Shown here: in pieces, positions 1-16,422 of the stretch
How the letters are laid out: every line of letters begins with the position of its first letter
Position numbering within the stretch: position 1 is the stretch's first letter
From: Chthoniobacterales bacterium
Lineage (GTDB): Bacteria > Verrucomicrobiota > Verrucomicrobiia > Chthoniobacterales > UBA10450
Direction of reading: 5' to 3'
Assembly (NCBI GenBank): GCA_013821455.1
Contig: JACDGS010000015.1
Location: 1-64,000, forward strand
Length of the DNA: 64,000 bases
The notes under the pieces: generated by a model
Databases searched by the model: none
Seen by the model: only the letters and a program-made list of their open reading frames with translations
Told to the model about the DNA's origin: nothing
Translations under genes and position numbers: made by a program

Positions 1-121
1 CCCGAGCGGAACGACGTGAAGTCGACGGATCCCGTGGGGCGTTCCGTGGAAGCCTGCGATCTGCCGGCACCGGGGCTTCCCGGAAACCCGGCGGGATCCC
101 TCGACTTCGCTCGGGATGACG
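1..121. repeat. Palindromic intergenic repeat of the GTCATCCCGAGCG.../...CGCTCGGGATGAC family (5' part at window edge)
   Basis: cccgagcgga...gatcccg and cgggatccctcgacttcgctcgggatgac arms; related copies at ~50.2, 50.75, 53.9 and 61.0 kb. Confidence 0.6.
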
Positions 122-164
122 GTCGGTGGCTGTTGGAGAAACTGCCGCCTAACGACTTGCCAAC

Positions 165-1898
165 CTAAACGGTCGCGGGCGTTTTCTGCTGGTGATAATG
201 CACGAGGCGGAAGCCCCATTCGATCAAGGTCGCCAGCTCGTGGTCGGCTGCTTTTCGCTGATGCAGGAAACGCGCGACCTTCGCCTGAAGTGGTTTCTGA
301 TCCTCCCGCTCGTCGAGAATCTCGAAAATTTCCAGGGAGAGAAGCCAGTCGTTAGGGTGTTCGGCCTGCTGCGTTTCCCAGATTTCGCCGAGCCGCTCGT
401 AGCCGGCTTTGCGCGTGCGAATATCGCGCACTTGTTGGTAGAGGTTTTCCAGTTTTCGCCGCTGCGCGTCGGATGGATTCTTGATCGTGCGCTCTTTGGG
501 AATGAGCGCGACTTGATTGAAGGCGTCTTTGTCAGCGGCGCCGTTAAAGACGGAAACGATCTTCGTTCCGACGGCCATGTCATACGTCCCCCACGACGGA
601 TCGAAAAGGACGCGCTCGCCCAGCTTTGCGATGCAATTTGAAAAGGTGATGACGACGAGTTTGCCGGCGTGGCGCAAAAGTTTTTCGACTTTGCCTGTCA
701 CACTAATTCCGCTCTCGAATTGGAGAGTCGCCGTTTCACCTGCGCGCAGTTCGACTTCGGTCCAGCAGCCGATTGGGGAACCAAAACCTTCGGCGTGATA
801 ATCGCGGCCGTGGCCGGACAATTCCATCCCGTCGACCGCGAGCGCCGTAGGACCGGTTGTGCGCAGGTAAATCGGCTCATCGTTAGGCCCAGTCAGGACT
901 TCGGTATAAGTGCCGGAAACTTGAAGCCCGGAGTCATACTCGCAGGTCGCGGTGTTCCGGCTGTCGATCGCTTTTGTGATTCCTTCCAGCCCGCCCACGC
1001 GGAAGGCCATCCTGCTCGCGAACTGCTCCAGGACATCGGCCAATTGTTTAAAATCCTCGGTCACGAAGAGCTGCGGTTGTTTTGTCGTGATGTCGAAAGC
1101 GGTCTTCGCCGCGCCTAACGAGTAAAGGATCTTTTTGACCTTCGGCTCGAGACAGGAAACCGACTCGCCGATCGAGGAAAGCAGACCCGCGCCATAGATT
1201 TTCGGGTTATCCATCGGCCCGATGAGTCCGTACTCAACGGTCCACCAATGGAAGCGCGAGAGGAGCGCCATCTCCGAAGGCTCGCCCAGGTCGCGCTGCC
1301 GTTCCTCGACCAGTTTCGTGGCCGCGGCGAGTTCGTTAGGCTCGGGGTTCGGCTGCTCCTTCAAAATCGAGAGATGCCGGATCGCTTCGTAGAGTTCGAA
1401 GTCTTTTTTTGACGACATCGCCTTCGCACCGACCTCGCCGAAACGTTGCAGATAATCCGCGTATTCCTGATCGACGATGATCGGCGCGTGGCCCGCGGCT
1501 TCGTGCACGATGTCGGGCGCGGGCGTGTATTCGATGTGATTGATCTGGCGCATGTCGCAGGCGATCACGAGCACGCGATAGGCTTGGAATTCCATGAAGG
1601 CCGCTGGCGGAATAAAACCGTCCACCGCGACACAACCCCAGCCGATTTTGCCGAGGATGTCGTTCATCTCGTCGATGCGCGGGATGCGGTCGAACGAGAT
1701 CCCGGTGTCGAGCAAACCCTGAAAGTAGAGTTTGTGGGCGTATTCCTTCAGGAAGAAAACATTCTGCCGCATGATGAAGCGCCAGACGGCGTGATCGATC
1801 GAGGTGTAGTCGTCGTAGCGCTGATCGACCGCGAATTGGAGCAAATGCTTTGGCAGGGCGGCGACGGCGGCGTTGGCGGATTTCGGTTTTGAATTCAT
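165..1898 (-). CDS. phhA: Aromatic amino acid hydroxylase (phenylalanine 4-monooxygenase-like, long form)
   Basis: 577 aa ORF; biopterin-dependent hydroxylase signature DIVHEAAGHAPIIVD...HWWTVEYGLIG. Confidence 0.88.
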   Translation of the reverse strand: MNSKPKSANAAVAALPKHLLQFAVDQRYDDYTSIDHAVWRFIMRQNVFFLKEYAHKLYFQGLLDTGISFDRIPRIDEMNDILGKIGWGCVAVDGFIPPAAFMEFQAYRVLVIACDMRQINHIEYTPAPDIVHEAAGHAPIIVDQEYADYLQRFGEVGAKAMSSKKDFELYEAIRHLSILKEQPNPEPNELAAATKLVEERQRDLGEPSEMALLSRFHWWTVEYGLIGPMDNPKIYGAGLLSSIGESVSCLEPKVKKILYSLGAAKTAFDITTKQPQLFVTEDFKQLADVLEQFASRMAFRVGGLEGITKAIDSRNTATCEYDSGLQVSGTYTEVLTGPNDEPIYLRTTGPTALAVDGMELSGHGRDYHAEGFGSPIGCWTEVELRAGETATLQFESGISVTGKVEKLLRHAGKLVVITFSNCIAKLGERVLFDPSWGTYDMAVGTKIVSVFNGAADKDAFNQVALIPKERTIKNPSDAQRRKLENLYQQVRDIRTRKAGYERLGEIWETQQAEHPNDWLLSLEIFEILDEREDQKPLQAKVARFLHQRKAADHELATLIEWGFRLVHYHQQKTPATV

Positions 1899-2025
1899 AA
1901 GCGCGCTCCTGCTCTCTGGACGTGATGGACCTGGCCGCGACGGGCCGACGTTAGAATCGCGGCGGATTGTCCGCCGGGCAAGCGCTACGCGCGATTTCTC
2001 CCCAGAGAATGATTCGCAGGCCGAG

Positions 2026-2442
2026 TCAGGGATTCGGCCGATTGTCAGTGATCTCGCGTGCCTGGTCTTCGCTCGGGAGGGTCTGGTGTTGCGCCTCCAT
2101 CTTTTCGAGCTTGGCGCGCTGTTCCGGAGTCAGCTCCGGCTGCAATGCGACGGCGGCGGCGGCAAATGCCGCGTGGACGCGCTGGCCTGTCTCCGTGCGA
2201 ATCCGTTCCAACTCGCGCGCAGTTTTTTCCAAAATTGGTTTTGTTTTGGCCACCTGTTCGGGCGTGAGATCGAGCCGCGATTGCATGCGGCGTCGAACTT
2301 TTTCCGAAAGGGTGGACTGATGCGAGAAGTCGAGCCGATGCGGGCGCGAGCGATCGATGCCGACGAATACTCCCGCGAGGAGCCCGGCGATGAAAACCAC
2401 CAGGAAGCCGCCCAATAATTTCCAGCGAAGTGGTGCGCTCAT
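2026..2442 (-). CDS. Spy/CpxP-like periplasmic protein with N-terminal TM (LTPEQ motifs)
   Basis: 138 aa ORF; TM followed by two LTPEQ motifs typical of Spy/metal-resistance family. Confidence 0.6.
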   Translation of the reverse strand: MSAPLRWKLLGGFLVVFIAGLLAGVFVGIDRSRPHRLDFSHQSTLSEKVRRRMQSRLDLTPEQVAKTKPILEKTARELERIRTETGQRVHAAFAAAAVALQPELTPEQRAKLEKMEAQHQTLPSEDQAREITDNRPNP

Positions 2443-2750
2443 TGGCCGAAGACCCCGCCAATCGCCGTGTCGGCGATAGAAAATTCATTGCCAAAAGGTT
2501 CCGCCGCTTCATCGCCATCGTGCAGCTCGCGATAAGCCCCCGCGGTCGCGAGGACGATCAGGCTCGCCGCGATGAGCATGACCCGGCGAAGCAGTCGCCC
2601 AATCTCCACGGGATCGGTCGGCAAGGTGGCGCGCCAGAGCGCGACCACGCGGGTGTCGAAACCAAACGGCATCTCCGGCGCGGGTTCGTTAGGCACGGAG
2701 GCCGCGGCACGGAGCAAACGAGGGACGGAAGAGGAGGTGGAGGTTTTCAT
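2439..2750 (-). CDS. Small membrane protein, probable anti-sigma partner of adjacent ECF sigma
   Basis: MKTSTSSSVPRLLRAAAS... start inferred inside ORF 2439..3113; single TM; overlaps both neighbours by 4 nt. Confidence 0.5.
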   Translation of the reverse strand: MKTSTSSSVPRLLRAAASVPNEPAPEMPFGFDTRVVALWRATLPTDPVEIGRLLRRVMLIAASLIVLATAGAYRELHDGDEAAEPFGNEFSIADTAIGGVFGQ

Positions 2751-3340
2751 TTTTCTTCTCGGGCGGTGACTAACGTGAGCTGTTGTTTCAGTTTTTGGCG
2801 GGCTCGGAAAGCGCGAACTTTTACGAGCGACGCGTTCCAGCCGGTGCGCTGCTGGATTTCTGCGATGGAAAGCTGCTGCAGATAAAGAAGGTCGATCACC
2901 AGACGATCGCGCGGCTTCAGGGAAGCGAGCAGATGCTCGACCAGATCGCGCGCGGCGAATTTGAGATCGGGCCCGACTTCCTCGGAAGTGGCGGCGAGAT
3001 TTTGCACGACCGCTTCTTCGTCCTCGCTCAGATCGGCGTAGCGCAACTCCGGCCGGATTTTTTCCGACTGGATTTGGTTCAGGCAGGTATTGATCGCGAC
3101 GCGCGAAACCCAATGCTCGAGCGGCACTTTGCCGGAAAACTGCGGCAGTTTTTGGAAAATCTTGATGAAAATCATCTGGCAGAGATCCTCCTCCGCGGCG
3201 CGGCGTGGACGATGAGAGCGGACCAACTTGGCGACGAGGGGATGCAGGCGGCGCACCATTTCGCGCTCGGCTGCTTCGTCGTGCTGGAGAACCGCGGGCA
3301 CAAGCTCGCCGGCATCCAATTCCTGGGCCATGTCATCCAA
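2747..3340 (-). CDS. ECF-type RNA polymerase sigma factor
   Basis: region 2/4 signatures (DLCQMIFIKIFQKLPQF; LVIDLLYLQQLSIAEIQQRTGWNASLVKVRAFRARQKL). Confidence 0.8.
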   Translation of the reverse strand: MDDMAQELDAGELVPAVLQHDEAAEREMVRRLHPLVAKLVRSHRPRRAAEEDLCQMIFIKIFQKLPQFSGKVPLEHWVSRVAINTCLNQIQSEKIRPELRYADLSEDEEAVVQNLAATSEEVGPDLKFAARDLVEHLLASLKPRDRLVIDLLYLQQLSIAEIQQRTGWNASLVKVRAFRARQKLKQQLTLVTAREEK

Positions 3341-3469
3341 AAGGTATCCACACTAACGTCGATGACCGGCCTGCGCGCGTCCGGGTTACAAGCGGCTTTT
3401 CGGTCGGCGAAAATCGAGCGGGTAAATTGTAACTCGCTTCTCCTCAGGCGCGTCATTAAAGCTAAGGAA

Positions 3470-3880
3470 ATGAAACTAAAACTGATCTCACTCACAGCTC
3501 TCACCGCTTTCGCCCTCGGCGGCGCGGCGTTGGCGCAGGACCAACCTAACGATGCTCCGCAGGGGCGCGGCGGACACGGCGGCGGCGGCATGCGCCACGA
3601 TCCGATGGAGAAATTGACCGACTCGCTCAACCTCACGCCTGAGCAGAAGACGAAAATCCAGCCAATCCTCGACGAAGCGAAGCCGAAGATGGAACAAATC
3701 CACCGGGATGCGATGGAGAAATCCAAAGCCGTCATGGACGACGCCGAGGCCAAGATTCGTCCGCTGCTTACAGCCGATCAGCAAAAGAAACTCGACGAAC
3801 AAAAGAACAATCGGCGCGGTGGCGGTCGCAAAGGCCGGCACGGTGGCGGTAGCGGCGGCGGCGAACCGGACGAAGGTTAG
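3470..3880 (+). CDS. Spy/CpxP-like secreted protein (LTPEQKTKIQPIL), Gly-rich tail
   Basis: signal peptide MKLKLISLTALTAFALGGAALAQ; LTPEQ and LTADQQKKLDEQ repeats. Confidence 0.65.
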   Translation: MKLKLISLTALTAFALGGAALAQDQPNDAPQGRGGHGGGGMRHDPMEKLTDSLNLTPEQKTKIQPILDEAKPKMEQIHRDAMEKSKAVMDDAEAKIRPLLTADQQKKLDEQKNNRRGGGRKGRHGGGSGGGEPDEG

Positions 3881-3903
3881 TCGTTAGGCCAGAGAAGATT
3901 TGA

Positions 3904-3940
3904 AGGCGGCGGCAATCGTAAGTTGCCGCCGCTTTTCGTT
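3904..3940 (+). terminator. Intrinsic terminator hairpin downstream of the Spy-like gene
   Basis: GCGGCGGCAA-tcgtaag-TTGCCGCCGC followed by TTTTCGTT. Confidence 0.6.
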
Positions 3941-4409
3941 AGGCCGGAGCGATCGGGATTTCGAGGAGCGGGAGCTCGCGTGCTTTGCCTTCCATTTGGG
4001 TGTGGAGAGTCCCGACGCGACGCGCGCCCATGTGCAGGTAAAATCCCTCCGCATTGGGATCGGATTCGATTGTTAGGCGGGTGACGCCCAGCTCGGCGGC
4101 CCGCGCCACGGCGTGGCGGAAAAGAGCTGCGCCGGCGCCGTGACCGATCCAATCCGGAAACACCCAGAGATGTTCCAGCCGCCAGACACGTTTAACACGG
4201 TGCAGTGCGTAAAAGCCGACCGTTTGCGCACCAGCGATGGCTTTGAAGACTTCGTTCCCAGCGATGAACTTCGACGTGACCAGAAGGTTTTCACCCCATT
4301 CCTCGAGCGCAGCGGCCGAGTAGCCCCAATGCGCCTTTGCCGCGCGCGAGACGAGACTTAACTCCGCCGCGTCGGCTGGAATTGCCCTAACGATTTCGAG
4401 ACTTTCCAT
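3939..4409 (-). CDS. GNAT family N-acetyltransferase
   Basis: LEHLWVFPDWIGHGAGAALFRHAVARAAELG motif A. Confidence 0.75.
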   Translation of the reverse strand: MESLEIVRAIPADAAELSLVSRAAKAHWGYSAAALEEWGENLLVTSKFIAGNEVFKAIAGAQTVGFYALHRVKRVWRLEHLWVFPDWIGHGAGAALFRHAVARAAELGVTRLTIESDPNAEGFYLHMGARRVGTLHTQMEGKARELPLLEIPIAPA

Positions 4410-4548
4410 CTTCGCTCAAGCTGGAAGGACGCCGCCGAAAGAGCTCGCTTAAACAGAAAGGCGAGGACGGCTTTCGCCGCCCTCGCCCGTTCAAGATTTG
4501 AAAAGTCTGCGGGCCAGAAGGGGCGCGCTCGCTTAACGAGTCGATCCC

Positions 4549-4728
4549 TTATTTTCCGAAAACCTTCTTCACGTCACCGACCTTTTGCTGGACCTTCCCC
4601 TCCACCTTGTCCGCGGTTCCGCGATCCTGCAGATCGGGATTGCCGATCACCTTCCCCGTTTTTTCTTTTACCGCACCGATGGCTTGTTTTGCTGTTCCTT
4701 TGGCTTTGTCTTCTGAGCTTGAGTTCAT
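4549..4728 (-). CDS. CsbD-like small stress protein (59 aa)
   Basis: Translated by hand: MNSSSEDKAKGTAKQAIGAVKEKTGKVIGNPDLQDRGTADKVEGKVQQKVGDVKKVFGK; below the length cutoff of the ORF track. Confidence 0.85.
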   Translation of the reverse strand: MNSSSEDKAKGTAKQAIGAVKEKTGKVIGNPDLQDRGTADKVEGKVQQKVGDVKKVFGK

Positions 4729-4782
4729 ACTCGTAATTCGTAGTTGGTCCCGCGGCAGGCCGTGCCGCTTTTGCCCCGTCGG

Positions 4783-6060
4783 TTAGCGCGCACTCGGCCC
4801 GAGGATTTTGAAGATGTCCCCGCTCGTGATGGCCACGATGTAGAGCTCGCCGCTCGCATCCTCGCCTAGCGAAGTCGGATTATTCAGCGGGTAGTTGCCC
4901 ACCGGCGTCGGGAACAGCTCCGTCGTGATGTCCTGGAAATTCGTCGCCGTGTTGCCGTTCACGTTCAAAGTCCAAATCCGGCCCGTGGTGTAATCCGGCC
5001 CGAGATAGTCCGCGAAAACGTAAACGCCTTTGAGCGAGGGAATGCGTTTCCCGCGATAAACGTAACCGCCAATGACCGTCACGCCGACCGTGTGTGGATA
5101 ATCGTAGATCGGATCGAGCGCGTTCGGCGGAACCGGATCGTTCGGGTAGGCCGGATTCTGGATTGTGCCTTCGCGCACCCGCCAGCCGTAGTTTTCCCCG
5201 CCGCCGGGATTGGCCGCAAGCTGCGCGTCCACCTCTTCGCGCGAATCCTGACCGACATCGCCAATGTACAGATTACCAGTCTGGCGATCGAAGCTGTCGC
5301 GGAAAGGATTGCGCAAGCCGTAGCAGAAGATCTCCTGCCGATTCACGGTCGAGCCGGCAAATGGATTGTTCGCCGGAATAGTGTAAGTGCCGAGCCGAGT
5401 CCCAATGTGAATGCGCAGCATCTTGCCCAGAAGCGTCGTGAGGTTTTGCGCGTTGCCGCCCGGCTCGATGTGTCCCGTGCCGGCGTCGTTGCTCGCGCCG
5501 CCATCGCCCGTCGCGATGTAAAGATTTCCCTCATCTCCGGCCCGCGGACTAAATCCGATCCAGCCGCCGTTGTGATTACTTTCCGGCTGGTCGTAGCTGA
5601 GCAGGATGCGCTCGCTAGCCGGATCGGCCACGTTGGGATCGGTCGAAACCCGGAACTGCGCGATGTGACTGACCCCCTGCCCGAAGCTCCCGCCCGGCCC
5701 GACGTAGTTAACATAGAACCGCCGATTCGCCGCGTAGTTCTGATCGAAGGCGAGCCCGAGCAAACCTTCCTCGCCATTGAGCGAAATCTCGCTCGAGATA
5801 TCGAGAAATGGCGTCGCGTTCGTCGCCCCGGTCTTCAGATTTAGAATCTTAATCTGGCCAGTAAGCTGGACCACAAAAAGCCGCGTCCGATCACCCGGCG
5901 GCGCCGTGACAAAGACCGGTTCGACAAACCCCGTGGCCACCCGCGTGGCGCTAAGTCCAGGGACGGCTTGGGCATGGAGTGAAGTGAGAGAAGTGAAGAA
6001 CAACGCGAGGCTGGCAGCCCCGGCGAAAGTCCGGCCAGCAAAGAATGGCTTGAGTGACAT
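4783..6060 (-). CDS. PQQ-dependent glucose/sorbosone dehydrogenase-like (GSDH) secreted protein
   Basis: LFVVQLTGQIKILN...LLGLAFDQNYAANRRFYVNY...YIATGDGGASNDAGTGH...YGLRNPFRDSFD. Confidence 0.85.
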   Translation of the reverse strand: MSLKPFFAGRTFAGAASLALFFTSLTSLHAQAVPGLSATRVATGFVEPVFVTAPPGDRTRLFVVQLTGQIKILNLKTGATNATPFLDISSEISLNGEEGLLGLAFDQNYAANRRFYVNYVGPGGSFGQGVSHIAQFRVSTDPNVADPASERILLSYDQPESNHNGGWIGFSPRAGDEGNLYIATGDGGASNDAGTGHIEPGGNAQNLTTLLGKMLRIHIGTRLGTYTIPANNPFAGSTVNRQEIFCYGLRNPFRDSFDRQTGNLYIGDVGQDSREEVDAQLAANPGGGENYGWRVREGTIQNPAYPNDPVPPNALDPIYDYPHTVGVTVIGGYVYRGKRIPSLKGVYVFADYLGPDYTTGRIWTLNVNGNTATNFQDITTELFPTPVGNYPLNNPTSLGEDASGELYIVAITSGDIFKILGPSAR

Positions 6061-6377
6061 CCTTATTCTTTATACGCGCGAACCGGAATAGCAAGGAGGT
6101 CGACAAAGTTAGTGCCTAACGAATAAAGCTCTCGCACGTGAAGGAGCGCGCTGGTGGATTAGTCGATTCCCGCCCTCTGCGAAACAAGGCGCCGGGCGAG
6201 CGATCTCCCCGTCGCCTTTTCTTTCGTAGCGCGATACTTTTGCCCGCACGGGCGGTGCGCCGTCTCCGCGCAACTGCCAGAGCCCAGCTCGCCGATTGTC
6301 TTCAAGCCGCCGGGGCGCAGGGGCGTAGGAGCAAATCAAGGCTTGCTCTCCCGGACCGCGGCGTTAAAAAGATTCCC

Positions 6378-6605
6378 ATGACTTCCCCTTACCCTTACCG
6401 CCCATCCGCAAGGCCAGAAATAGGCGAAAACCCGTTTCGTCCATTTCTCGTTAACCAAATCGGCTGGCACGTTTATCTTGACAGCCACGCTACAATTGCA
6501 GCCGATTCGGCTAACTCTGCGTTGCAGCGAAACCTCGGTAATGCTCTGAGTGAAAATGACCTTTGGTACTCGGTTACGCTGAACTCCGTTTCATTAGACG
6601 TATGA
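6378..6605 (+). CDS. Short hypothetical ORF (possible truncated cassette ORF)
   Basis: MTSPYPYRPSARPEIGENPFRPF... within ORF 6138..6605; 3' end runs into attC-like site. Confidence 0.3.
   Translation: MTSPYPYRPSARPEIGENPFRPFLVNQIGWHVYLDSHATIAADSANSALQRNLGNALSENDLWYSVTLNSVSLDV
6509..6599 (+). repeat. Diverged attC site (attC0)
   Basis: R''-like GGCTAAC; L'' GTT(G)CAGCGAAACC pairs with L' GGTTACGCTGAAC with one extrahelical base; R' decayed to ATTAGAC; next ORF starts 20 nt downstream. Confidence 0.55.
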
Positions 6606-6618
6606 GTCTACGCGGCAG

Positions 6619-7026
6619 ATGAACACTCCCGGAATCGCAGCGATCCTCGTTGCGTTCTTGGTCGGCATTGTCTTCGTTGCGGCGCATGGTTGGTGGCGGC
6701 GCATCGGCATTGTCTGCCTCGTCGGGTCCATCGCGACGGCGGGTTTCTTTCTCATGCGAGATCGCCGCATCGGCTCGGGGGCAGCTAGGATCGCCATTGG
6801 CGATTCGCAGGCACATGTCCTCGCACTCCTCGGCCGTCCCACGCAGATTACAGATTGCAGCACTGGCTACGGCGGCTACAAGCGTGGCGAACTCGATAAG
6901 AGCGAGATTGCGCCCGGCTGCGTGGAAGAGTATTGGTATTACTCGTTCTACTTTCCTGCGTCATCCACATACAGCTTTGACAGCGACAAGAAAGTTATTC
7001 GGAAGTATGACCTCAACTCGCCCTAA
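6619..7026 (+). CDS. Cassette-encoded small membrane protein of unknown function
   Basis: 135 aa ORF with two TM segments, between attC0 and attC1. Confidence 0.65.
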   Translation: MNTPGIAAILVAFLVGIVFVAAHGWWRRIGIVCLVGSIATAGFFLMRDRRIGSGAARIAIGDSQAHVLALLGRPTQITDCSTGYGGYKRGELDKSEIAPGCVEEYWYYSFYFPASSTYSFDSDKKVIRKYDLNSP

Positions 7027-7050
7027 GGCTTTTAGCTGCCACGCCGAAAC

Positions 7051-7173
7051 GTCTAACCATGCGATGCAGCCAACCCCTGGCCGGCGTACGGCTTAGTTTC
7101 TCATGACTCCAACCTCTTCACCCGCCGCCACACGCGCCCTCGCCAGCGGTGGCTGATCTTGTTCTCGTTAGAT
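7051..7173 (+). repeat. attC site 1
   Basis: R'' GTCTAAC, L'' CAGCC(A)ACCCCTGGC, L' GCCAGCGGTGGCTG, R' GTTAGAT; extrahelical A. Confidence 0.88.
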
Positions 7174-7184
7174 CGTGTAGCAAT

Positions 7185-7592
7185 ATGAATGCGGGTGAAT
7201 TGAAGGAGCTTGCGACAAGATACACTGCTGCGTGGTGCAGCCAGAATGCGCAGAGTGTCGCGGCGTTCTTCGCGCGAGGCGGTACGTTGAAGATCAATGA
7301 TGGGAGTCCCTCCATCGGTCGGACGGCGATCACCGAAGCAGCGCAAGGCTTTATGACCTCATTTCCCGACCTGGTTGTGACGATGGACGCAATCACCCTC
7401 ACCGACGGCGACCACGCGGTATATCGCTGGGCGCTGAGAGGGACAAACTTCGGGCCGGGCGGCACTGGCAAAGCCGTGCGAATCTGCGGTTACGAGAAAT
7501 GGACCATCGGGGCAGAAGGGCTGATCGCAGAGTCCGAGGGACATTTCGATGAAGCTGATTACAAACGCCAGTTGCAAGCGAGCCCGATCTAA
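7185..7592 (+). CDS. Cassette-encoded SnoaL-like / NTF2-fold protein
   Basis: MNAGELKELATRYTAAWCSQNAQSVAAFF...DGSPSIGRTAITEA; stop codon lies in attC2 R''. Confidence 0.75.
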   Translation: MNAGELKELATRYTAAWCSQNAQSVAAFFARGGTLKINDGSPSIGRTAITEAAQGFMTSFPDLVVTMDAITLTDGDHAVYRWALRGTNFGPGGTGKAVRICGYEKWTIGAEGLIAESEGHFDEADYKRQLQASPI

Positions 7593-7709
7593 CCATGCGA
7601 TGCAGCCAACCACTGGTCGGCGTACGCTCAAGTTTCTCATGACTCAAACCTTGTCTCCCGCCACCACGCGCGCTTCCGCCAGCGGTGGCTGATCTTGTTC
7701 TCGTTAGAC
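7587..7709 (+). repeat. attC site 2
   Basis: R'' ATCTAAC, L'' CAGCC(A)ACCACTGG, L' CCAGCGGTGGCTG, R' GTTAGAC. Confidence 0.88.
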
Positions 7710-7722
7710 CTCATCGTCACTA

Positions 7723-8448
7723 ATGGAACTCTACATCCACCGCAACGGAGAGCAGTTCGGCCCATACACCGAGGACCAAGTTCGCTCTGACCTACTCGCT
7801 GGTACAATCCAGCTAACGGATCTCGCGTGGTATGAGGGCGCTGAGGATTGGACGCCACTATCAGACGTTCCCGGCTTCGCCCAGCGCAGCACGCCGCCGC
7901 CTGTCCGGCCCGCAGCGCTTCGCGCCACTCGGCCGGTCGAGCTTCCGCAGATCAGTCGCGATAGTCTCGGTTCTTACGCGAGTTCTACGTTGCAACCAAA
8001 CGAGACGCCGCTTTATAAGACATCTGTTCACTGGATTATCTTTGTAGGCACAGGCATTCTTGCGTTCTTTCTTCTCGTCTTTCTCGCGTTACCTATGGCT
8101 ATCGGCATTCAGGCGGAGTCGCATTCGCCCGCCGGTTGGCTCGCACTGTTCCTACCGGTTGTGGTGGTTCTTCCGGGAGTCGTCGTCTACACGACGAGCG
8201 AGCTCGTCATTACAGATCGCCGCGTGCTCATTAAGGTAGGGTTTGTTCGTCGCCGCACGCTCGAGATGTTCATCTCCAAGATTGAATCAGTCGGAGTAAG
8301 TCAGGGGTTATTCGGACGCTTGTTCGACTAAGGCACCGTTACCATTAGAGGTACAGGCGGCTCCGCTGAACCGTTTAAGACTATCGCGGACCCACTCGGA
8401 TTCAGAAATTGTGTCCAGCGTATTCAGAGTCACACGGAGCCACGCTAA
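7723..8448 (+). pseudogene. Cassette-encoded GYF_2 + bacterial PH (bPH_2) domain protein interrupted by in-frame TAA at 8329-8331
   Basis: MELYIHRNGEQFGPYTEDQVRSDL... (GYF_2); after the TAA the same frame continues GTVTIRGTGGSAEPFKTIADPLGFRNCVQRIQ, the expected end of a bPH domain. Confidence 0.7.
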
Positions 8449-8452
8449 TGAG

Positions 8453-8597
8453 GTCTAACCAGGGCGATGCAGCCAACCGCTGGCCGGCGTACGCTCAAGT
8501 TTTCCATGACTCCAACCTCACAGCCCGCCGCCACGCGCGCCCTCGCCAGTCGCAGACTCGCCGTGGAGAGCGGTGGCTGATCTTGCTCTCGTTAGGC
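8453..8597 (+). repeat. attC site 3
   Basis: R'' GTCTAAC, L'' CAGCC(A)ACCGCTGGC, L' AGCGGTGGCTG, R' GTTAGGC. Confidence 0.87.
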
Positions 8598-8611
8598 CAC
8601 TATTCACGCCC

Positions 8612-9112
8612 ATGCCACTAAGCAACATTGTCGTTATTGTCATTCGCTTGTTCTCGCTGAACTGGCTGTTGACCTCCGTGCCGCTCTTCTTAGCGGCAAC
8701 AGCGAGTCCGTTGCCCAACGACCGGAATATGGCCGGTGTTTTGATGCTCTACGCCCCCTCCGTGCTCTTGCTCATCCTCGCAGCGGTGCTCTGGATTCTC
8801 GCGCCCGCCATCGCGCGACTAGTCAGCCGCGGCGTAGATACGACGGTGAGCGTCGGCGGTCTTTCCCGATCCGATCTTTACAGTTTCGCTTTTGTATTTC
8901 TCGGACTTTTCTTCATTCTTTCCTCGTTCGCGAATGTCGTCGACTGGGCTCACTATTTCGCCACGGTTTCCCACCCTGACGCACGCGTTCGCAACCTGTA
9001 TCAGCTTACTCGACCGTGTCTCACTCTGGGACTGGGGGTCGTTTCATTGCTCGGTGCGCCGAGCTGGACCAAGAAGCTCGTAGCCCATGACGAAAAGAGC
9101 CAAGTGGCCTAA
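8612..9112 (+). CDS. Cassette-encoded integral membrane protein
   Basis: MPLSNIVVIVIRLFSLNWLL... four predicted TM segments; stop overlaps attC4. Confidence 0.65.
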   Translation: MPLSNIVVIVIRLFSLNWLLTSVPLFLAATASPLPNDRNMAGVLMLYAPSVLLLILAAVLWILAPAIARLVSRGVDTTVSVGGLSRSDLYSFAFVFLGLFFILSSFANVVDWAHYFATVSHPDARVRNLYQLTRPCLTLGLGVVSLLGAPSWTKKLVAHDEKSQVA

Positions 9113-9228
9113 GCAGGCGATGCAGGCAACCACTGGCCAGCGTACGCCCAAGTTTCCATGACTCCAACCTCAAATCCCGCCGCCACGCGCGCCCTCGCCA
9201 GCGGTGGCTGATCTTATTCTCGTTAGGT
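9107..9228 (+). repeat. attC site 4 (R'' degenerate, GCCTAAG)
   Basis: L'' CAGG-CAACCACTGG, L' CCAGCGGTGGCTG, R' GTTAGGT; rest near-identical to attC1-3. Confidence 0.8.
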
Positions 9229-9241
9229 TCTTGCGACCGCC

Positions 9242-9961
9242 GTGTTGAGCAACTCCAAGCCAAATACATATTCACGCCGCTGGTTTGAGTCCTTTCATGC
9301 CGGGATCAGCGAAACGCGGACTATGATTGAGGTCGATTTTATTTCGTCGTTCGCGCCGTTAACCCAGTTCCCTAAACTGGCCGATGTCTGTTGCGGAATG
9401 GGGCGTCACGCCCGCGCTTTAAGTAAGCGTGGCTATACAGTGACGGGCGTTGAGCGCGATCTCGCGGCCGTCGCCAAGGCTCGCGAGCTAGGCGGTGGCC
9501 CGTGCTATATCGAGGCGGACCTGCGCGATTATCAACCAGAGATAGCGGCGTATGACGCCGTCATCGTGATGGGGCAGAGTTTTGGGCATTTCGACGCCGC
9601 GGCAAATCGAGCGGTACTCGGGCGGTTGGCCACTGGGTTAAGGCCGAGCGGTCGTTTGATTCTTGACCTATGGCATCCGGAGTTCTTCGCGTCTCATCAA
9701 GGTGAGCGAGATTTTGAATTAGCCGATGGAATTGTTCGTGAAACGAAACGAGTTCGAGGCGATCGGCTCTTTGTGCATCTGGCTTACCCGACCGGTGAAC
9801 AGGAAGATTTCGAGTGGCAGTTATTCAGCCGGACCGACATGAAAGCGTTGGCGTCCTCGCTCGGATTAACTCTCGTTGCCTGCTGCATGGATTTCGATTG
9901 CTCGGACGAGGTTCGCGCGGCAACGCCCCGAATCCAATTTGTCTTGGAGCGCAATGTGTAA
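9242..9961 (+). CDS. Cassette-encoded class I SAM-dependent methyltransferase
   Basis: LADVCCGMGRHARALSKRGYTVTGVERD SAM-binding motif; start 14 nt after attC4 R'. Confidence 0.8.
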   Translation: MLSNSKPNTYSRRWFESFHAGISETRTMIEVDFISSFAPLTQFPKLADVCCGMGRHARALSKRGYTVTGVERDLAAVAKARELGGGPCYIEADLRDYQPEIAAYDAVIVMGQSFGHFDAAANRAVLGRLATGLRPSGRLILDLWHPEFFASHQGERDFELADGIVRETKRVRGDRLFVHLAYPTGEQEDFEWQLFSRTDMKALASSLGLTLVACCMDFDCSDEVRAATPRIQFVLERNV

Positions 9962-10031
9962 GGGGCATGACCATTTGGAACTCGAACCTCTGGCCAAGGT
10001 ATGTTTCGCGTTTCCTGTGAGGCCAACATCC

Positions 10032-10159
10032 TTTAACAAAGCCGCGCGTGTGCTGGCCAAATGATGGGTTGCTTCTATCGATCCGTCGCGAGCACACATT
10101 CAGACTCCGGTCTTTAAGGTGATGTTGCGGCTTGTCGGTCCAATCCTTTCTCGTTAGGC
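10032..10159 (+). repeat. Possible diverged fifth attC site
   Basis: TTTAAC + AAGCCGC ... GCGGCTT + TCTCGTTAGGC; arms short. Confidence 0.3.
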
Positions 10160-10187
10160 TCCCTCCGTCAAAGGCCGAGGCTCGACG

Positions 10188-10883
10188 ATGCAACGCGAAA
10201 GTGACCGCCTGACTCCCCTCTACGCACGACTGCTTCTTCGCCTAACGAGGCCGTTCCCGAATTTCGATGTGGCGTTCATCGGGCCGTTGCGCGCAAGGGC
10301 AACGCAGGCCATGCATCTCCGAGCGGGAGACCGTGTGCTCGACGTTGGTTGCGGGATAGGCGGGAGCTTTCTGTTCCTGGCGGACGCGGTCGGCCCCTCG
10401 GGCGAAGTTCTCGGCGTCGAAATCAGTCCGGCAACTGTCGCCCACGCCCAGCGTCGCATAGAGACGAATCGGTGGACCAATGTCCATGTCGTGCAGGGCG
10501 CGGCTCAGACGGTTCGGCTCGCGGGATGGTACGACGGTCTGATCATGTTCGGGGCGCCGGACGTCTATGCTTCTGCGAAAGCACTTGAGAATATCCTGCC
10601 TCATCTGCGCGTCGGAGCGCGGATTGTCTTGTTCGGGGCGAGAACGACGAACGGTGTCGCCGGCAAACTGCTGAATCCAATGCTGAAGCTCGCCGTGTCG
10701 AAGCTGTCGTTCGCGACGACCCCTCTCCCGGACGCCGAACCCTGGCACTTGGTTCGCGCCGTGACCGAAAATCTGGAGATTCGCGAGTATTTTTTCGGTG
10801 CCATGTTTCTGGCTGCGGGCTCACTCGCGCAGAATTGGACCGCCGCCCTGAAGGATGCCGTTACGAATAAGAGTGGAGCATGA
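10188..10883 (+). CDS. Class I SAM-dependent methyltransferase
   Basis: MHLRAGDRVLDVGCGIGGSFLFLADAVGPSGEVLGVEISPATVAHA. Confidence 0.8.
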   Translation: MQRESDRLTPLYARLLLRLTRPFPNFDVAFIGPLRARATQAMHLRAGDRVLDVGCGIGGSFLFLADAVGPSGEVLGVEISPATVAHAQRRIETNRWTNVHVVQGAAQTVRLAGWYDGLIMFGAPDVYASAKALENILPHLRVGARIVLFGARTTNGVAGKLLNPMLKLAVSKLSFATTPLPDAEPWHLVRAVTENLEIREYFFGAMFLAAGSLAQNWTAALKDAVTNKSGA

Positions 10884-11009
10884 TAAAGCGCCCGACTTCT
10901 TTCTGGGGCGGACGCGAAGTATTTCAAAATCCGGATTTCCCTAACGAAAAGCCCGCGTAGCGAAGAGAGCAATTGAAAGGCGCAGGCGCGCGACTACTAT
11001 GCAGGCGCG

Positions 11010-13463
11010 GTGGCCAAACGCACTCAGCACAATGCATGGAATGAAGTTTACGCGCTCATCCTTCTCGGGGTCGGGACGCTCCTCTTCCTTGCCCTGATCT
11101 CCTACGTCCCGAAGGACATCCCGACCTGGTTTCCGCTTCTTAATTCCACCTCGTCGCCGAACCGGCCGGCGCAGAATTTTCTCGGACCGCTGGGCGCAGT
11201 CGGCGCGGGGATTTGTTACTTTCTCATCGGCGCCGCTTCTTATCTGCTGGCCGCGACGCTGCTCGGATTTGGCGGGGCGAAGCTTTTTTACGGCGAGCTG
11301 CGGGTCAGCCGGCGGGTGGGCTGGATGATTCTCTTCATCGCTTCCGGCGCGTGTCTGCTTCATCTGCAGCCGTGGTTTTTGCATGACTGGCGGCGCGAGT
11401 TCAAAATCCAGGGGCCGGGCGGATGGGTCGGTTATTTTTTTGGCCGGCATATCTTCCGCCTCGCGCTCGGCAAAGGGTCGGTCATCGTCCTGGCCGGGAT
11501 TTACCTAACGAGTCTAATCCTCATGACCGGCCTGCGGCCCGTCTATCTCGTTAGGCAAAGCGTTCTCGCGAGCAAGCGCGCGGTCGTTGTTCTGCGCCTT
11601 TGGTTTCTCCGTCGCCGGATGCGGAAGACGGACCTGAAAGGCCAGCTCGAAATCAGCCAGCAGCAGATCGCAAAACAGCAGCGCGTCCTGGAAAAGAAGC
11701 TGCGCAAAAAAGGTGCGCCTCTTCTCGACGGGCCGGTGCTGGCGACGCCGGAGGAGTTTGCCAATCGTCCGGAGCCGAAGGTCGTGGACACGACGGCGTT
11801 GCCTAACGAGTCCGCCACACCGCGCAAAAAACCTTCGCTGGCCGAATTGAAGCGTGGAAAAAAAAGCGCCAAAGCCGAGCCTGCCCTAACGACAGCGCAG
11901 GGATGGGACGCCGAGAGTTACGAGTTGCCCGGAATCGATTTGCTCGAGGAGCACGATCCCGCCGGGCGCGTCGCCGCCGATCCGGCTGAGCTGGCGGAAA
12001 TTCAGCAGACGTTGATCGACACACTTGATCAATTCGGGATCAAGGTTGCGGCCGGCGACATCACCAAAGGTCCGACGATCACGCGCTACGAAGTCTATCC
12101 GGCGAAAGGCGTGCGCGTGGATAAGATCGTTAGTCTGGAGCGCGATCTCGCCCGCGCCACGCGGGCCGAGCGGATAAATATTCTCGCGCCGATTCCGGGC
12201 AAAGACACCGTCGGCATCGAGCTGGCGAACACGCGCAAAGTCAAAGTGACGTTGCGCGAGCTGTTGCAATCGGAGGATTGGAACGCGAGCACGGCGAAGC
12301 TCCCGATCGCGCTGGGCAAAGACGTTTACGGCAAAACCATCATCGCCGATCTCGCGCAGATGCCGCACCTGCTCGTCGCGGGCACGACGGGCAGCGGCAA
12401 GAGCGTCTGCATCAATGCGCTTATCGCGAGCATGCTTTACCGGTTCACGCCGGATCAGCTCCGCTTCATCATGATCGATCCGAAGGTGGTTGAGATGCAG
12501 GTTTACAACACGCTGCCGCATCTCGTGATCCCGGTCGTGACCGATCCCAAAAAAGTGCTACTCGCGCTGCGCTGGGTGATCGATGAAATGGAGAAGCGCT
12601 ACAAAATTTTCGCCAAAGCTGGCGTGCGCAACATCACCAGCTTCAACGCACGCCCGCCGAAAAAAACGCAGGCGGAACTCGATCTTGTAGCCGGGGGCGC
12701 TGACCCCGGCGGGGCCAACGATGCCATGCTAAATGAGCGGCCGGGGTCACCGCCCCCGGCTACAATCAAAGTCCCGCGCGACGACGAGCTGATTGTGCCT
12801 GATCACATGAGTTACATCGTCGTCATCATCGATGAGCTGGCCGACCTGATGCAGACCGCGCCGGCCGATGTCGAGAGCGCGATCGCGCGCATTACGCAGA
12901 TGGCGCGCGCGGCTGGCATTCATCTCATCGTCGCGACGCAGACGCCGCGCGCCGATGTCATCACCGGCGTGATTAAGGCGAACATCCCGAGCCGCATCGC
13001 TTTCCAGGTCGCGAGCAAGATCGACAGCCGCGTCATCCTCGACGAGAACGGCGCCGATCGATTGTTAGGCCAGGGCGACATGCTCTATCTGCCGCCGAGC
13101 ACTTCACGTCTCATCCGCGCGCAAGGCGTGCTTGTGACCGATGAGGAAATCACCCGGCTGGTCGAGTTCGTGAGCGCGCAAAGTTCACCTGCGTACGATC
13201 TCGCGGCGCACGAACAAATGAGTTCCGCCAGCGCGCCTAACGATGACGATGTGACCGACGAAGACGAGGAACTGGTCGAGAAATGTCTCGAAATTATCCG
13301 CCAGGAAAAACGCGCTTCCACTTCGCTCCTGCAACGCCGGCTCCGGCTCGGCTACACCCGCGCGGCCAGGATCGTTGATATTCTGGAGCAGCGCGGCATA
13401 TTGGGACCCGGCGAAGGCGCGAAGCCGCGCGAGATTCTCGTCGATCTCGACGCCGCCGTCTGA
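11010..13463 (+). CDS. ftsK: DNA translocase FtsK/SpoIIIE
   Basis: TM N-terminus, Walker A AGTTGSGKSVCINALI, Walker B IVVIIDELADLM, C-terminal gamma domain. Confidence 0.93.
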   Translation: MAKRTQHNAWNEVYALILLGVGTLLFLALISYVPKDIPTWFPLLNSTSSPNRPAQNFLGPLGAVGAGICYFLIGAASYLLAATLLGFGGAKLFYGELRVSRRVGWMILFIASGACLLHLQPWFLHDWRREFKIQGPGGWVGYFFGRHIFRLALGKGSVIVLAGIYLTSLILMTGLRPVYLVRQSVLASKRAVVVLRLWFLRRRMRKTDLKGQLEISQQQIAKQQRVLEKKLRKKGAPLLDGPVLATPEEFANRPEPKVVDTTALPNESATPRKKPSLAELKRGKKSAKAEPALTTAQGWDAESYELPGIDLLEEHDPAGRVAADPAELAEIQQTLIDTLDQFGIKVAAGDITKGPTITRYEVYPAKGVRVDKIVSLERDLARATRAERINILAPIPGKDTVGIELANTRKVKVTLRELLQSEDWNASTAKLPIALGKDVYGKTIIADLAQMPHLLVAGTTGSGKSVCINALIASMLYRFTPDQLRFIMIDPKVVEMQVYNTLPHLVIPVVTDPKKVLLALRWVIDEMEKRYKIFAKAGVRNITSFNARPPKKTQAELDLVAGGADPGGANDAMLNERPGSPPPATIKVPRDDELIVPDHMSYIVVIIDELADLMQTAPADVESAIARITQMARAAGIHLIVATQTPRADVITGVIKANIPSRIAFQVASKIDSRVILDENGADRLLGQGDMLYLPPSTSRLIRAQGVLVTDEEITRLVEFVSAQSSPAYDLAAHEQMSSASAPNDDDVTDEDEELVEKCLEIIRQEKRASTSLLQRRLRLGYTRAARIVDILEQRGILGPGEGAKPREILVDLDAAV
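12685..12765. repeat. Palindromic element inserted in-frame within ftsK
   Basis: 25-bp arms TTGTAGCCGGGGGCGCTGACCCCGG / CCGGGGTCACCGCCCCCGGCTACAA (one mismatch), encodes LVAGGADPGG...ERPGSPPPATI. Confidence 0.85.
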
Positions 13464-13476
13464 TCCCACCACCCCG

Positions 13477-14130
13477 ATGGAAGCTCTCGGCCCTAAACTC
13501 AAGCAGGCGCGTCTCTCGCGAAAGATCACGCTCGAAGAAGCGTCGCGCATTACCAAGATCCGTCCGTCGCGCATCGCCGAGATCGAGCAGGAAGATTTTT
13601 CCAGCTTCCCCAGTCTCGCCTATGCCAAAGGCTTCCTCCTCATCTATGGGAAATTTCTCGACGTCGATGTCACGCCCTATCTCGATGCGTTTGAAATCTC
13701 CGACCGCGTGACGGTGGATGGATATTCCTATCTGCAGGATAACGGCCCCGCCGCACCGCCGCCGCTCGTGCGCCGGCAACCGCGCAAGAGCCCGGCCTTC
13801 GTGCCTTTTCTGATCGCGGTCGCGGTCCTCGTGATCGGCATATATTTGATCCGTCTGATGCTCAACGTGCAGCGCATCACGCCTGCGCACGACAACTCGA
13901 CAGGCGCGCTCACTTCCGCCTCGGCGACCGCGACGCCGCCACCAACTGCGCTCGGTGAGATCGTCGCGCCGCGCGCCCAACCGGTGGAGGGAACACCTGC
14001 AAGCGAAGCCGGCGTGACTCCACGGGCAACACTTCGCCAACCGGAAGTGCGTCGCGCCGAGCCCGTGAATCCGGAAGACGAGCCGTCGAATCCTTCGCCT
14101 AACGAGTCGCCGCGCGGAGGCCGTCGTTGA
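13477..14130 (+). CDS. RodZ-like HTH + TM protein
   Basis: LGPKLKQARLSRKITLEEASRITKIRPSRIAEIEQEDF...YAKGFLLIYGKFLDVD, TM, Pro-rich tail. Confidence 0.75.
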   Translation: MEALGPKLKQARLSRKITLEEASRITKIRPSRIAEIEQEDFSSFPSLAYAKGFLLIYGKFLDVDVTPYLDAFEISDRVTVDGYSYLQDNGPAAPPPLVRRQPRKSPAFVPFLIAVAVLVIGIYLIRLMLNVQRITPAHDNSTGALTSASATATPPPTALGEIVAPRAQPVEGTPASEAGVTPRATLRQPEVRRAEPVNPEDEPSNPSPNESPRGGRR

Positions 14131-15509
14131 ACGCGGAGCCGCCCGCGGCTTCCGGTCGCCTAACGACGGTGGGAATGATCAGTCTTGGCTGCGCCAAGAA
14201 TTTGGTCGATGCGGAAATCATGCTCGGGAGCGTGCGCGCGCAGGGGATGGAAATCACTCCCCACGCCGAGGAGGCGGATGTGCTCGTGATTAATACCTGC
14301 GCTTTCATCGATTCCGCCAAGGAAGAATCGATCGAAGCTATTCTCGAAGCGCACGAGCAACGCGGCCTAACGAAACGGCCTAACCAAAAGCTGATCGTAA
14401 GCGGTTGCATGTCGCAGCGTTTCGCGCGCGAACTGCGGGCGCAATTGCCCGAGGTGGACGCGTTCATCGGGCTCGACCAGGTGAGCGAACTGGGCGCCAT
14501 CGTTAGGCGAGTCGTTAGGCAGGAGACAGTTCCCGGCGAGAATTTCGTGACCAAAGGGCCGACCTATATTCCCGACTGGGACACGCCGCGTTTCCGTCTC
14601 ACGCCCGCGCATAGCGCCTATGTGAAAATCGCCGAGGGCTGCAATCATCCCTGTAGTTTTTGCGTGATCCCGCAAATGCGCGGCCGCCATCGCAGCCGGC
14701 CGCCGGGATCCATTCTGGCCGAAGTGCGCGGCCTCGTGGCGGAAGGCGTGGGGGAGATTAATCTGATCAGCCAGGACACCACTTATTACGGGATGGATTT
14801 GTGGGAACAAAAGGCCGGCCCGCGGCAGCCGGTTGATTCCGCACGGGGGCTCACGCTCTCGGCCTTGCTCCGCGAGCTGGAAAAAATCGACGGCGAATTT
14901 TGGGTGCGCCTTCTTTACACCCATCCCGCGCATTGGAGCGACGAACTGATCGAGACCATCGCGCAATGCGGTAAAGTCGCGCGCTATGTCGATATGCCGT
15001 TGCAGCATATCGACGAGGCGATGCTTGGCCGGATGCGCCGCGAAACGTCACGCGAGCACATCGAAAATTTGATCGTTAGGCTGCGCGCCGGCATTCCGGG
15101 ACTTGCTTTGCGCACGACTTTTATCGTTGGTTTTCCGGGCGAAACGGAAGCGGAGTTTGAGTCGCTGCTCGGGTTCATCGAGCGCGTCCGTTTTGAGCGG
15201 CTTGGAATTTTCAAATACTCGCAGGAGGAAGGCTCGCGCGCCGCGAAAATGCCGGGGCAAATCCCGGCGTCGGTCAAGAATGCGCGCTACCGCCGCGCCA
15301 TGACCTTGCAACAAAAAATCGCGCGCGAGCTGGCCGCGGCCCAGGTCGGCCGCGAACTCCGTTTGCTCGTCGATCAGCCGCTGATTGCGCGCACGGAAGC
15401 AGACGCGCCGGAGGTCGATTGTCGCGTGCTATTGCAGGAGGCCGCACCGGTCGGGGAGTTCGTTAGGCGCACGATTCGCGGTGCGCGTGGCTACGATCTT
15501 CTCGCCTAA
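14127..15509 (+). CDS. rimO: Ribosomal protein S12 methylthiotransferase RimO
   Basis: ISLGCAKNLVDAEIMLG; radical-SAM CNHPCSFC; 4-nt overlap with upstream gene. Confidence 0.93.
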   Translation: MNAEPPAASGRLTTVGMISLGCAKNLVDAEIMLGSVRAQGMEITPHAEEADVLVINTCAFIDSAKEESIEAILEAHEQRGLTKRPNQKLIVSGCMSQRFARELRAQLPEVDAFIGLDQVSELGAIVRRVVRQETVPGENFVTKGPTYIPDWDTPRFRLTPAHSAYVKIAEGCNHPCSFCVIPQMRGRHRSRPPGSILAEVRGLVAEGVGEINLISQDTTYYGMDLWEQKAGPRQPVDSARGLTLSALLRELEKIDGEFWVRLLYTHPAHWSDELIETIAQCGKVARYVDMPLQHIDEAMLGRMRRETSREHIENLIVRLRAGIPGLALRTTFIVGFPGETEAEFESLLGFIERVRFERLGIFKYSQEEGSRAAKMPGQIPASVKNARYRRAMTLQQKIARELAAAQVGRELRLLVDQPLIARTEADAPEVDCRVLLQEAAPVGEFVRRTIRGARGYDLLA

Positions 15510-15615
15510 CGAACGGATTTTCCGGGGCCGCCGCGGATTGGTATTTGACAGCCGGCACGCAGGTGGGCAGAGAAGATTCTCGCAATTTCAAAGCCACGAC
15601 TTTACGTTAATTTGC

Positions 15616-16422
15616 ATGGCCGATTTAAACGAACCTAAGAAGGAAACCGTTCGGATCACGCTGCCCCCGCGTCCGGCGACCGTGCCAGTCGCACGCGAAA
15701 AAGATACCGTGCGGATAAATTTGCCGACCCGTCTGCCTGGCGCCGCGCCGACCGTTCCGCTGCCTCCGCCGAGTGCCGGTGCACCGCCGCCGCCGCCGCC
15801 AAAACCCGCGGCGCCGGCCAGCATCACGCCCTCTTCGGTCAGGCCGGCTCCACCAGTCGTTAGGCCGCCGTTGCCGCCAGCTCCGGGAAGCGGGGTACGA
15901 CCGTCCGCGCCGCCTTCGCTACCCGCCCGCCCGCCTTCTCCCCCAACAACTTCATTGCCCAGGCCGCCTGAACCAGTTCGCCCCTCTGCCGCTGCGCCGC
16001 TGGCGCCGACAGGGGCAAAACCCGCCGCGCCACCGGTGCGCCCGCCTCTTTCGCCGCCGCGGCCTCCTTCTGTGCCGCCGACCACGGCGCTGAAACCGCC
16101 GTCCGCGCCCGCTTTGTTACCGGCGGTTCCGAAGCCGGTCACGCCGGCGAAGGTCGAGACTTCCGAGAGCGCGGTGGCTCCGCGAAAAGAAACCGCGCGC
16201 ATCGGCGCGGCTCCCGAATCGCCGATGAAGGCGACGGTCAAGCTTGGCACGACGCAACCTTTAAGTTCTCCGCCCGTCGGGGCGATTCGCACCGCGCCCT
16301 CCCTCGCCGCTCCGGCTCTGGTGCAAGTGCCGGTTGACTCTGTGCCGACCGGCTTTTGTTGGGCCTTGCTCGCCGTTTCTGTGCTAACCTTATTGATCCA
16401 ACTCTGGACTTACTTCTCTTAA
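15616..16422 (+). CDS. Proline-rich protein with KETVRI-type motifs and C-terminal TM
   Basis: MADLNEPKKETVRITLPPRP...EKDTVRINLP...RKETARI...C-terminal TM. Confidence 0.6.
   Translation: MADLNEPKKETVRITLPPRPATVPVAREKDTVRINLPTRLPGAAPTVPLPPPSAGAPPPPPPKPAAPASITPSSVRPAPPVVRPPLPPAPGSGVRPSAPPSLPARPPSPPTTSLPRPPEPVRPSAAAPLAPTGAKPAAPPVRPPLSPPRPPSVPPTTALKPPSAPALLPAVPKPVTPAKVETSESAVAPRKETARIGAAPESPMKATVKLGTTQPLSSPPVGAIRTAPSLAAPALVQVPVDSVPTGFCWALLAVSVLTLLIQLWTYFS

Follow-up and report, generated by a model that had tools for sequence, protein, structure and literature searches.

A small attC cluster without an adjacent integrase beside ftsK in a soil verrucomicrobial genome, and a genome-wide word that coincides with its R' box

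How does a short row of integron cassettes come to lie beside ftsK with no integrase next to it? The question is raised by a 64,000-nucleotide stretch, here called the window (positions 1 to 64,000 of contig JACDGS010000015.1, assembly GCA_013821455.1), of a Chthoniobacterales bacterium (GTDB lineage Verrucomicrobiota; Verrucomicrobiia; Chthoniobacterales; UBA10450), in which a preliminary description had recognized four repeats as attC sites. The cluster is very probably a small CALIN (cluster of attC sites lacking an integron integrase; PMC9024848) of an ordinary integron system, the resident integrase of which (IntI) inserts cassettes in trans at numerous loci. The genome has a complete integron on another contig, C81, comprising IntI, attI and five attC sites, as well as many other attC clusters. 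Coordinates throughout are window positions, and the attC sites and cassette open reading frames (ORFs) are on the (+) strand.

The attC sites and cassettes of the window

The four repeats (7050–7174, 7586–7710, 8452–8598 and 9106–9229) constitute the largest direct-repeat family within positions 1–16000, and are interleaved with ORFs on the same strand. The family has a length of 121 nt and an ungapped identity of 64–100%, the low values resulting from indels. The repeats possess R''/R' and L''/L' boxes, and their identification as attC sites is borne out by these boxes, by the array arrangement and by further matches across the genome; the coordinates first given for them were correct to within 1–2 bp. 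The full set of hallmarks ascribed to them, namely R'' (RYYYAAC), R' (GTTRRRY) and complementary L''/L', is present in attC 1–3 but not in attC 4, the R'' of which is altered to CCTAAG from the family form CYTAAC. Alignment of 25 genomic attC copies gave the consensus R'' RYCTAACCA, L''/L' CAGCCAACC / GGTGGCTG and R' TTCTCGTTAGRY. Each site had been placed immediately after the stop codon of a same-orientation ORF. One same-orientation ORF does accompany each attC (4/4), but in two cassettes the preceding frame ends at a TAA within R'' (7590–7592 and 9110–9112); R'' supplies the stop codon, and attC 2 and attC 4 therefore overlap the end of the preceding ORF.

A covariance model, R1, was built in this analysis from a training set that included the window attC sites. 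As training members, these sites score 123–146 bits. Genome-wide, R1 gave 83 attC matches on 22 contigs, most of them outside the training set, and because the window copies were used in training, more weight is given to these 83 matches than to the window scores. Low model scores and repeats outside an ORF-by-ORF arrangement had been named beforehand as grounds for doubt; the scores are high, and cassette-like arrays are found elsewhere too, with a median attC spacing of 600 bp. The bottom strand is more stable than the top strand in all four window sites (minimum free energies, bottom/top, of -21.7/-14.9, -21.9/-17.0, -29.9/-26.9 and -17.5/-16.7 kcal/mol for attC 1–4), with energies that are ordinary in comparison with shuffled sequences; for attC 4, the attC hairpin is not the minimum-energy fold. 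The locus comprises the following features, with bit scores of attC sites from model R1.

4783..6060 (-): glucose/sorbosone-dehydrogenase-like gene, left chromosomal flank; name based on the protein sequence and not on a search of families
6508..6605 (+): probable degenerate attC, with R'' GGCTAAC, an L''/L' stem and R' ATTAGAC; 6.4 bits
6619..7026 (+): cassette 1 ORF, 135 aa, membrane-anchored, no family assigned
7050..7174 (+): attC 1; 146.2 bits
7185..7592 (+): cassette 2 ORF, SnoaL-like (PF12680, 50 bits); stop within the R'' of attC 2
7586..7710 (+): attC 2; 141.1 bits
7723..8448 (+): cassette 3 ORF, GYF_2 and bPH_2 domains; in-frame TAA at 8329–8331
8452..8598 (+): attC 3, with a longer central stretch; 123.2 bits
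8612..9112 (+): cassette 4 ORF, hydrophobic protein; stop within the R'' of attC 4
9106..9229 (+): attC 4, R'' mutated; 125.3 bits
9242..9961 (+): cassette 5 ORF, class I methyltransferase (PF13649, 47 bits)
9975..10159 (+): probable decayed attC with an intact R'-like box, TTCTCGTTAGGC, at its end; 13.7 bits for 9991–10059
10188..10883 (+): second methyltransferase ORF, possible last cassette, after the R'-like box at 10153
11010..13463 (+): ftsK, right chromosomal flank

The cargo is as previously assigned, with a SnoaL-like protein, a GYF_2-bPH protein, a methyltransferase and two membrane or hydrophobic proteins, except that the GYF_2-bPH gene is probably broken: its frame is interrupted by the in-frame TAA, without which it extends to 8448. 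The two outermost sites were found with the search filters off and, judged by their sequence, are probably decayed attC sites. The score of the 6508–6605 site is low and the crossover G is missing from its R' box; support is given by the pairing of its boxes (9 of 11 L''/L' positions) and by the ORF that starts directly after it. The 9975–10159 site has an E value of 0.008 in 5.2 kb, and the methyltransferase ORF beyond it may be one further cassette. No Rfam family was matched in the cluster. The ftsK frame contains a REP-like (repetitive extragenic palindrome) inverted repeat at 12685–12765, with 26-nt arms of 96% complementarity and a 29-nt spacer.

The resident integrase and the origin of the cluster

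The absence of an integrase holds for the window locus, where no intI remnant was seen, but not for the genome, in which attC sites of the same family are present on 22 contigs and an intI gene, which the preliminary description had proposed to look for, was found. Of the five tyrosine recombinase matches in the genome, just one is to IntI: the protein encoded on C81, which scores 478.9 bits with the integron integrase model TIGR02249 (cut-off 265). Upstream of its gene lie five attC sites in the opposite orientation, and an attI-like core, TTCTCGTTAGATG, precedes the conserved IntI domain by approximately 140 nt, in the position of attI. TCGTTAG occurs in the same region upstream of IntI at 17 of the 26 host-family loci with sufficient flank. 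The window cluster has four attC sites, where a CALIN has at least two, and this single IntI match of the genome is on a different contig. Near-identical cassettes occur at different loci of the genome: one is common to the IntI array of C81 and a cluster on C72 (93% identity over the full length), and another recurs on C19 and C21 (94% identity). In L116, which belongs to another genus, a homologue of cassette 4 (62% identity) immediately follows an attC.

The cluster lies well within an 83.6-kb contig and has chromosomal genes on both sides, the dehydrogenase-like gene and ftsK. It had been taken for either a sedentary cluster or the tail of an array; it is an attC cluster without an adjacent integrase, and it is not an array tail at a contig edge. 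In a genus-mate (G041, apparently the genome to which locus L038 belongs), the site is near-empty, with the two flanking genes approximately 0.2 kb apart, and therefore the window cluster is an insertion. The orthologue of the dehydrogenase-like gene is likewise beside ftsK, at this distance and free of attC, in L180. With model R1, no attC was detected at ftsK in four genus-mates whose flanks were examined. Across the genus, the space between the dehydrogenase-like gene and ftsK seems to be a hot spot for insertions or duplications: two genus-mates (L037 and L047) carry other inserts upstream of ftsK. In both, the 5' region of ftsK has partial copies several kilobases upstream of the gene (L037:3405–3439 and 6498–6566; L047:6385–6526), adjoining repeat-rich autotransporter-like genes.

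In the mechanism that we propose as the most economical, the resident IntI would excise cassettes as circles and insert them, via the folded attC bottom strand, mainly at attI but now and then at other sites of the attG type. Clusters would grow through attC × attC recombination and would then decay in place. For the window locus, we infer that IntI inserted the cassettes. Signs of decay are present in the outer attC sites, in which the crossover G is lost or R'' is altered, and in the bPH gene with its stop codon. Accessory functions make up the cargo (SnoaL-like protein, GYF/bPH membrane protein, methyltransferases), and any expression would depend on local promoters.

The decayed appearance of the outer sites would also suit a degraded integron that lost its own adjacent intI by deletion, making the cluster a relic rather than a CALIN inserted in trans. 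That origin is improbable, given that the locus holds no intI remnant, that the genome retains one intact IntI together with many other clusters, and that a genus-mate has a near-empty site. The dehydrogenase–ftsK interval invites the suggestion that the cluster arrived or moved inside a larger mobile element, such as a transposon or an integrative element, and not cassette by cassette, since the 5' side of ftsK looks like an insertion hot spot in genus-mates and the inserts of L037 and L047 contain partial ftsK 5' copies; we consider this highly improbable, because the window has no upstream copy of the ftsK 5' region and no transposase or other recombinase is present among the ORFs of the insert. 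It is scarcely credible that the repeats are not attC sites at all but some other dispersed repeat or a regulatory RNA. Their presence at many places and the ordinary folding energies of single sites would be compatible with such an identity, whereas the R and L boxes, the array spacing, the stop codons made by R'', the adjacency to IntI and attI, and the lack of an Rfam match argue for attC.

Several observations weigh against a CALIN filled in trans by the resident IntI. The attC stem shows little covariation (1 of 30 pairs), because the attC family is conserved; together with the ordinary folding energies, this means that the case rests on the boxes, the array arrangement and the link to IntI. 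Among cassettes of the genome, the longest ORF (at least 60 aa) is on the attC strand in just 24 of 36. No GTTRRRY is present upstream of the first cassette, and relatives have diverged too far between genes for the insertion junction to be read; left boundaries of clusters are eroded or unreadable. Finally, the genome is a draft of 117 contigs in which many attC clusters touch contig ends, making the number of separate loci uncertain. In the near-complete assemblies G038, G039 and G022, attC sites are found at many separate places, and therefore the dispersal is not solely an artefact of broken assemblies.

CALINs and their mobilization in trans are established (PMC12444791), and the window cluster resembles them in having at least two attC sites, one ORF per cassette, few sites per cluster and no adjacent intI. 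It differs in that many clusters share a genome with a complete integron, and in a host family that has seemingly been little studied. Sedentary chromosomal integrons, as in Vibrio and Xanthomonas (PMC12444791, PMC11023631), likewise combine a single IntI and many cassettes, here represented by the 83 attC matches, with attC sites of one uniform, species-specific family. However, to judge from the draft, the cassettes are spread here across many loci instead of forming a single large array. Scattered chromosomal loci away from attI are also a feature of insertion at attG sites (Loot et al. 2024, cited by PMC12444791 and PMC12901181), a likeness that concerns position.

In the host family, R1 detected attC sites in 81 of 83 genomes, and IntI scored above the cut-off in 37. 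Matches were rare and mostly weak in 232 genomes of the class from outside the family, the main exception being G523, which belongs to the same order and has eight. A compact attC subfamily of 98 bp with a highly conserved core occurs across several genera of the family (L067, L091, L094, L097, L100 and L113). Literature searches returned no paper on integrons or uptake sequences in this group of soil Verrucomicrobiota, and the lineage seems little documented for integrons in the open literature searched. We regard the system as a further member of an already described kind, from a lineage with little documentation.

A genome-wide word coinciding with the R' box

Motif statistics were computed from 411 kb of the genome and from whole-genome pattern counts. 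Among 9-mers of the window, TCGTTAGGC has by far the strongest over-representation (58 copies against 0.5 expected), as it also has among those of the genome; TCGTTAGG has 80 copies in the whole window. The R' box of attC and attI, which reads TCGTTAGRY when the two bases before it are included, contains TCGTTAGGC as a perfect instance. Genome G000 contains 4,633 copies, equally divided between the strands (2314 + 2319), against 63 for a reversed-word control. Copy numbers are 1,529–2,772 in four genus-mates, 2,286 and 1,803 in two other genera, and 25 to approximately 590 elsewhere in the host family; outside the family they are mostly 0–20, with a few genomes reaching 134. The extended context is weak (TnTAC-TCGTTAGGC-RAR) and differs from the attC flank.

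The word is enriched approximately 1.7-fold between genes, as delimited by approximate gene prediction, and depleted approximately eightfold in cassettes (5 copies found against 39 expected, Poisson P ~1e-11, attC R' boxes aside). Among ftsK–rodZ–rimO orthologues, some copies are conserved between relatives and others come and go. Neighbouring copies have the same orientation in 215 of 370 cases. A role as inverted-pair terminators was rejected, since pairs within 60 bp are direct in 16 cases and inverted in 4. In genera g2, g3, g4, g13 and g14, a second word, AAGATCGACA, takes over the role, with up to 4,653 copies in the 2.9-Mb genome G038, which holds both words; it was seen in G039 as well. 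Derivation of AAGATCGACA from attC was also rejected, as the six bases that they have in common are at chance level.

DNA uptake sequences have been described in Neisseriaceae and Pasteurellaceae (PMC3630211, PMC12616744), and are known only from these families according to a 2025 paper (PMC12616744). They are recognizable as 9–12-mers that are over-represented on both strands and enriched in resident DNA, as TCGTTAGGC is. The pattern resembles a DNA uptake sequence with dialects: a 9–10-mer in thousands of copies, approximately one per 0.9 kb and equal on both strands, found within core genes, commoner between genes, under-represented in foreign DNA and varying by lineage. It differs in belonging to another phylum, in close pairs that are direct rather than inverted, and in coinciding with the attC/attI R' box, and the likeness is drawn from sequence alone. 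A ComEC homologue was the only competence gene found; it is not diagnostic, as many bacteria have ComEC. Chi-like or KOPS-like (FtsK-orienting polar sequence) functions, or protection from restriction, may be alternative roles of the word.

The R' arm TCGTTAGRY is conserved in attC sites across the host family, including genomes poor in the motif, and TCGTTAG is present in 77 of 86 sites. We estimate the probability of a chance coincidence between box and 9-mer at ~3e-5 for the R' box alone and, post hoc, at ~4e-3 for any place in attC. Two direct tests of a connection gave null results. Retuning of attC towards the motif was not supported, the exact 9-mer being present in 26 of 73 attC sites of motif-rich genomes against 21 of 68 (Fisher p = 0.59). 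Nor does the motif appear to be a landing site for clusters: about a dozen have upstream sequence, and few of these contain TCGTTAG, by our estimate not in excess of what its density would give. That the motif and the integron are functionally linked is therefore unproven, and we retain such a link as a low-probability reading. Its fuller form is likewise a doubtful proposition: that the family has a self-recognition word, probably an uptake sequence with the dialects TCGTTAGGC and AAGATCGACA, and that the identity of TCGTTAGGC with the R' box either provides each cassette with an uptake tag or reflects recruitment of the word from the integron.

The analysis documents a pervasive integron system in soil Verrucomicrobiota, with attC sites in 81 of 83 genomes of the host family, dispersed as many CALINs per genome. 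That the R' box coincides with a word found throughout the genome raises the question of whether uptake sequences exist in these bacteria and are exploited by integron cassettes. On that low-probability reading, every cassette would come with its own uptake tag, and natural transformation would be coupled to the capture of cassettes.
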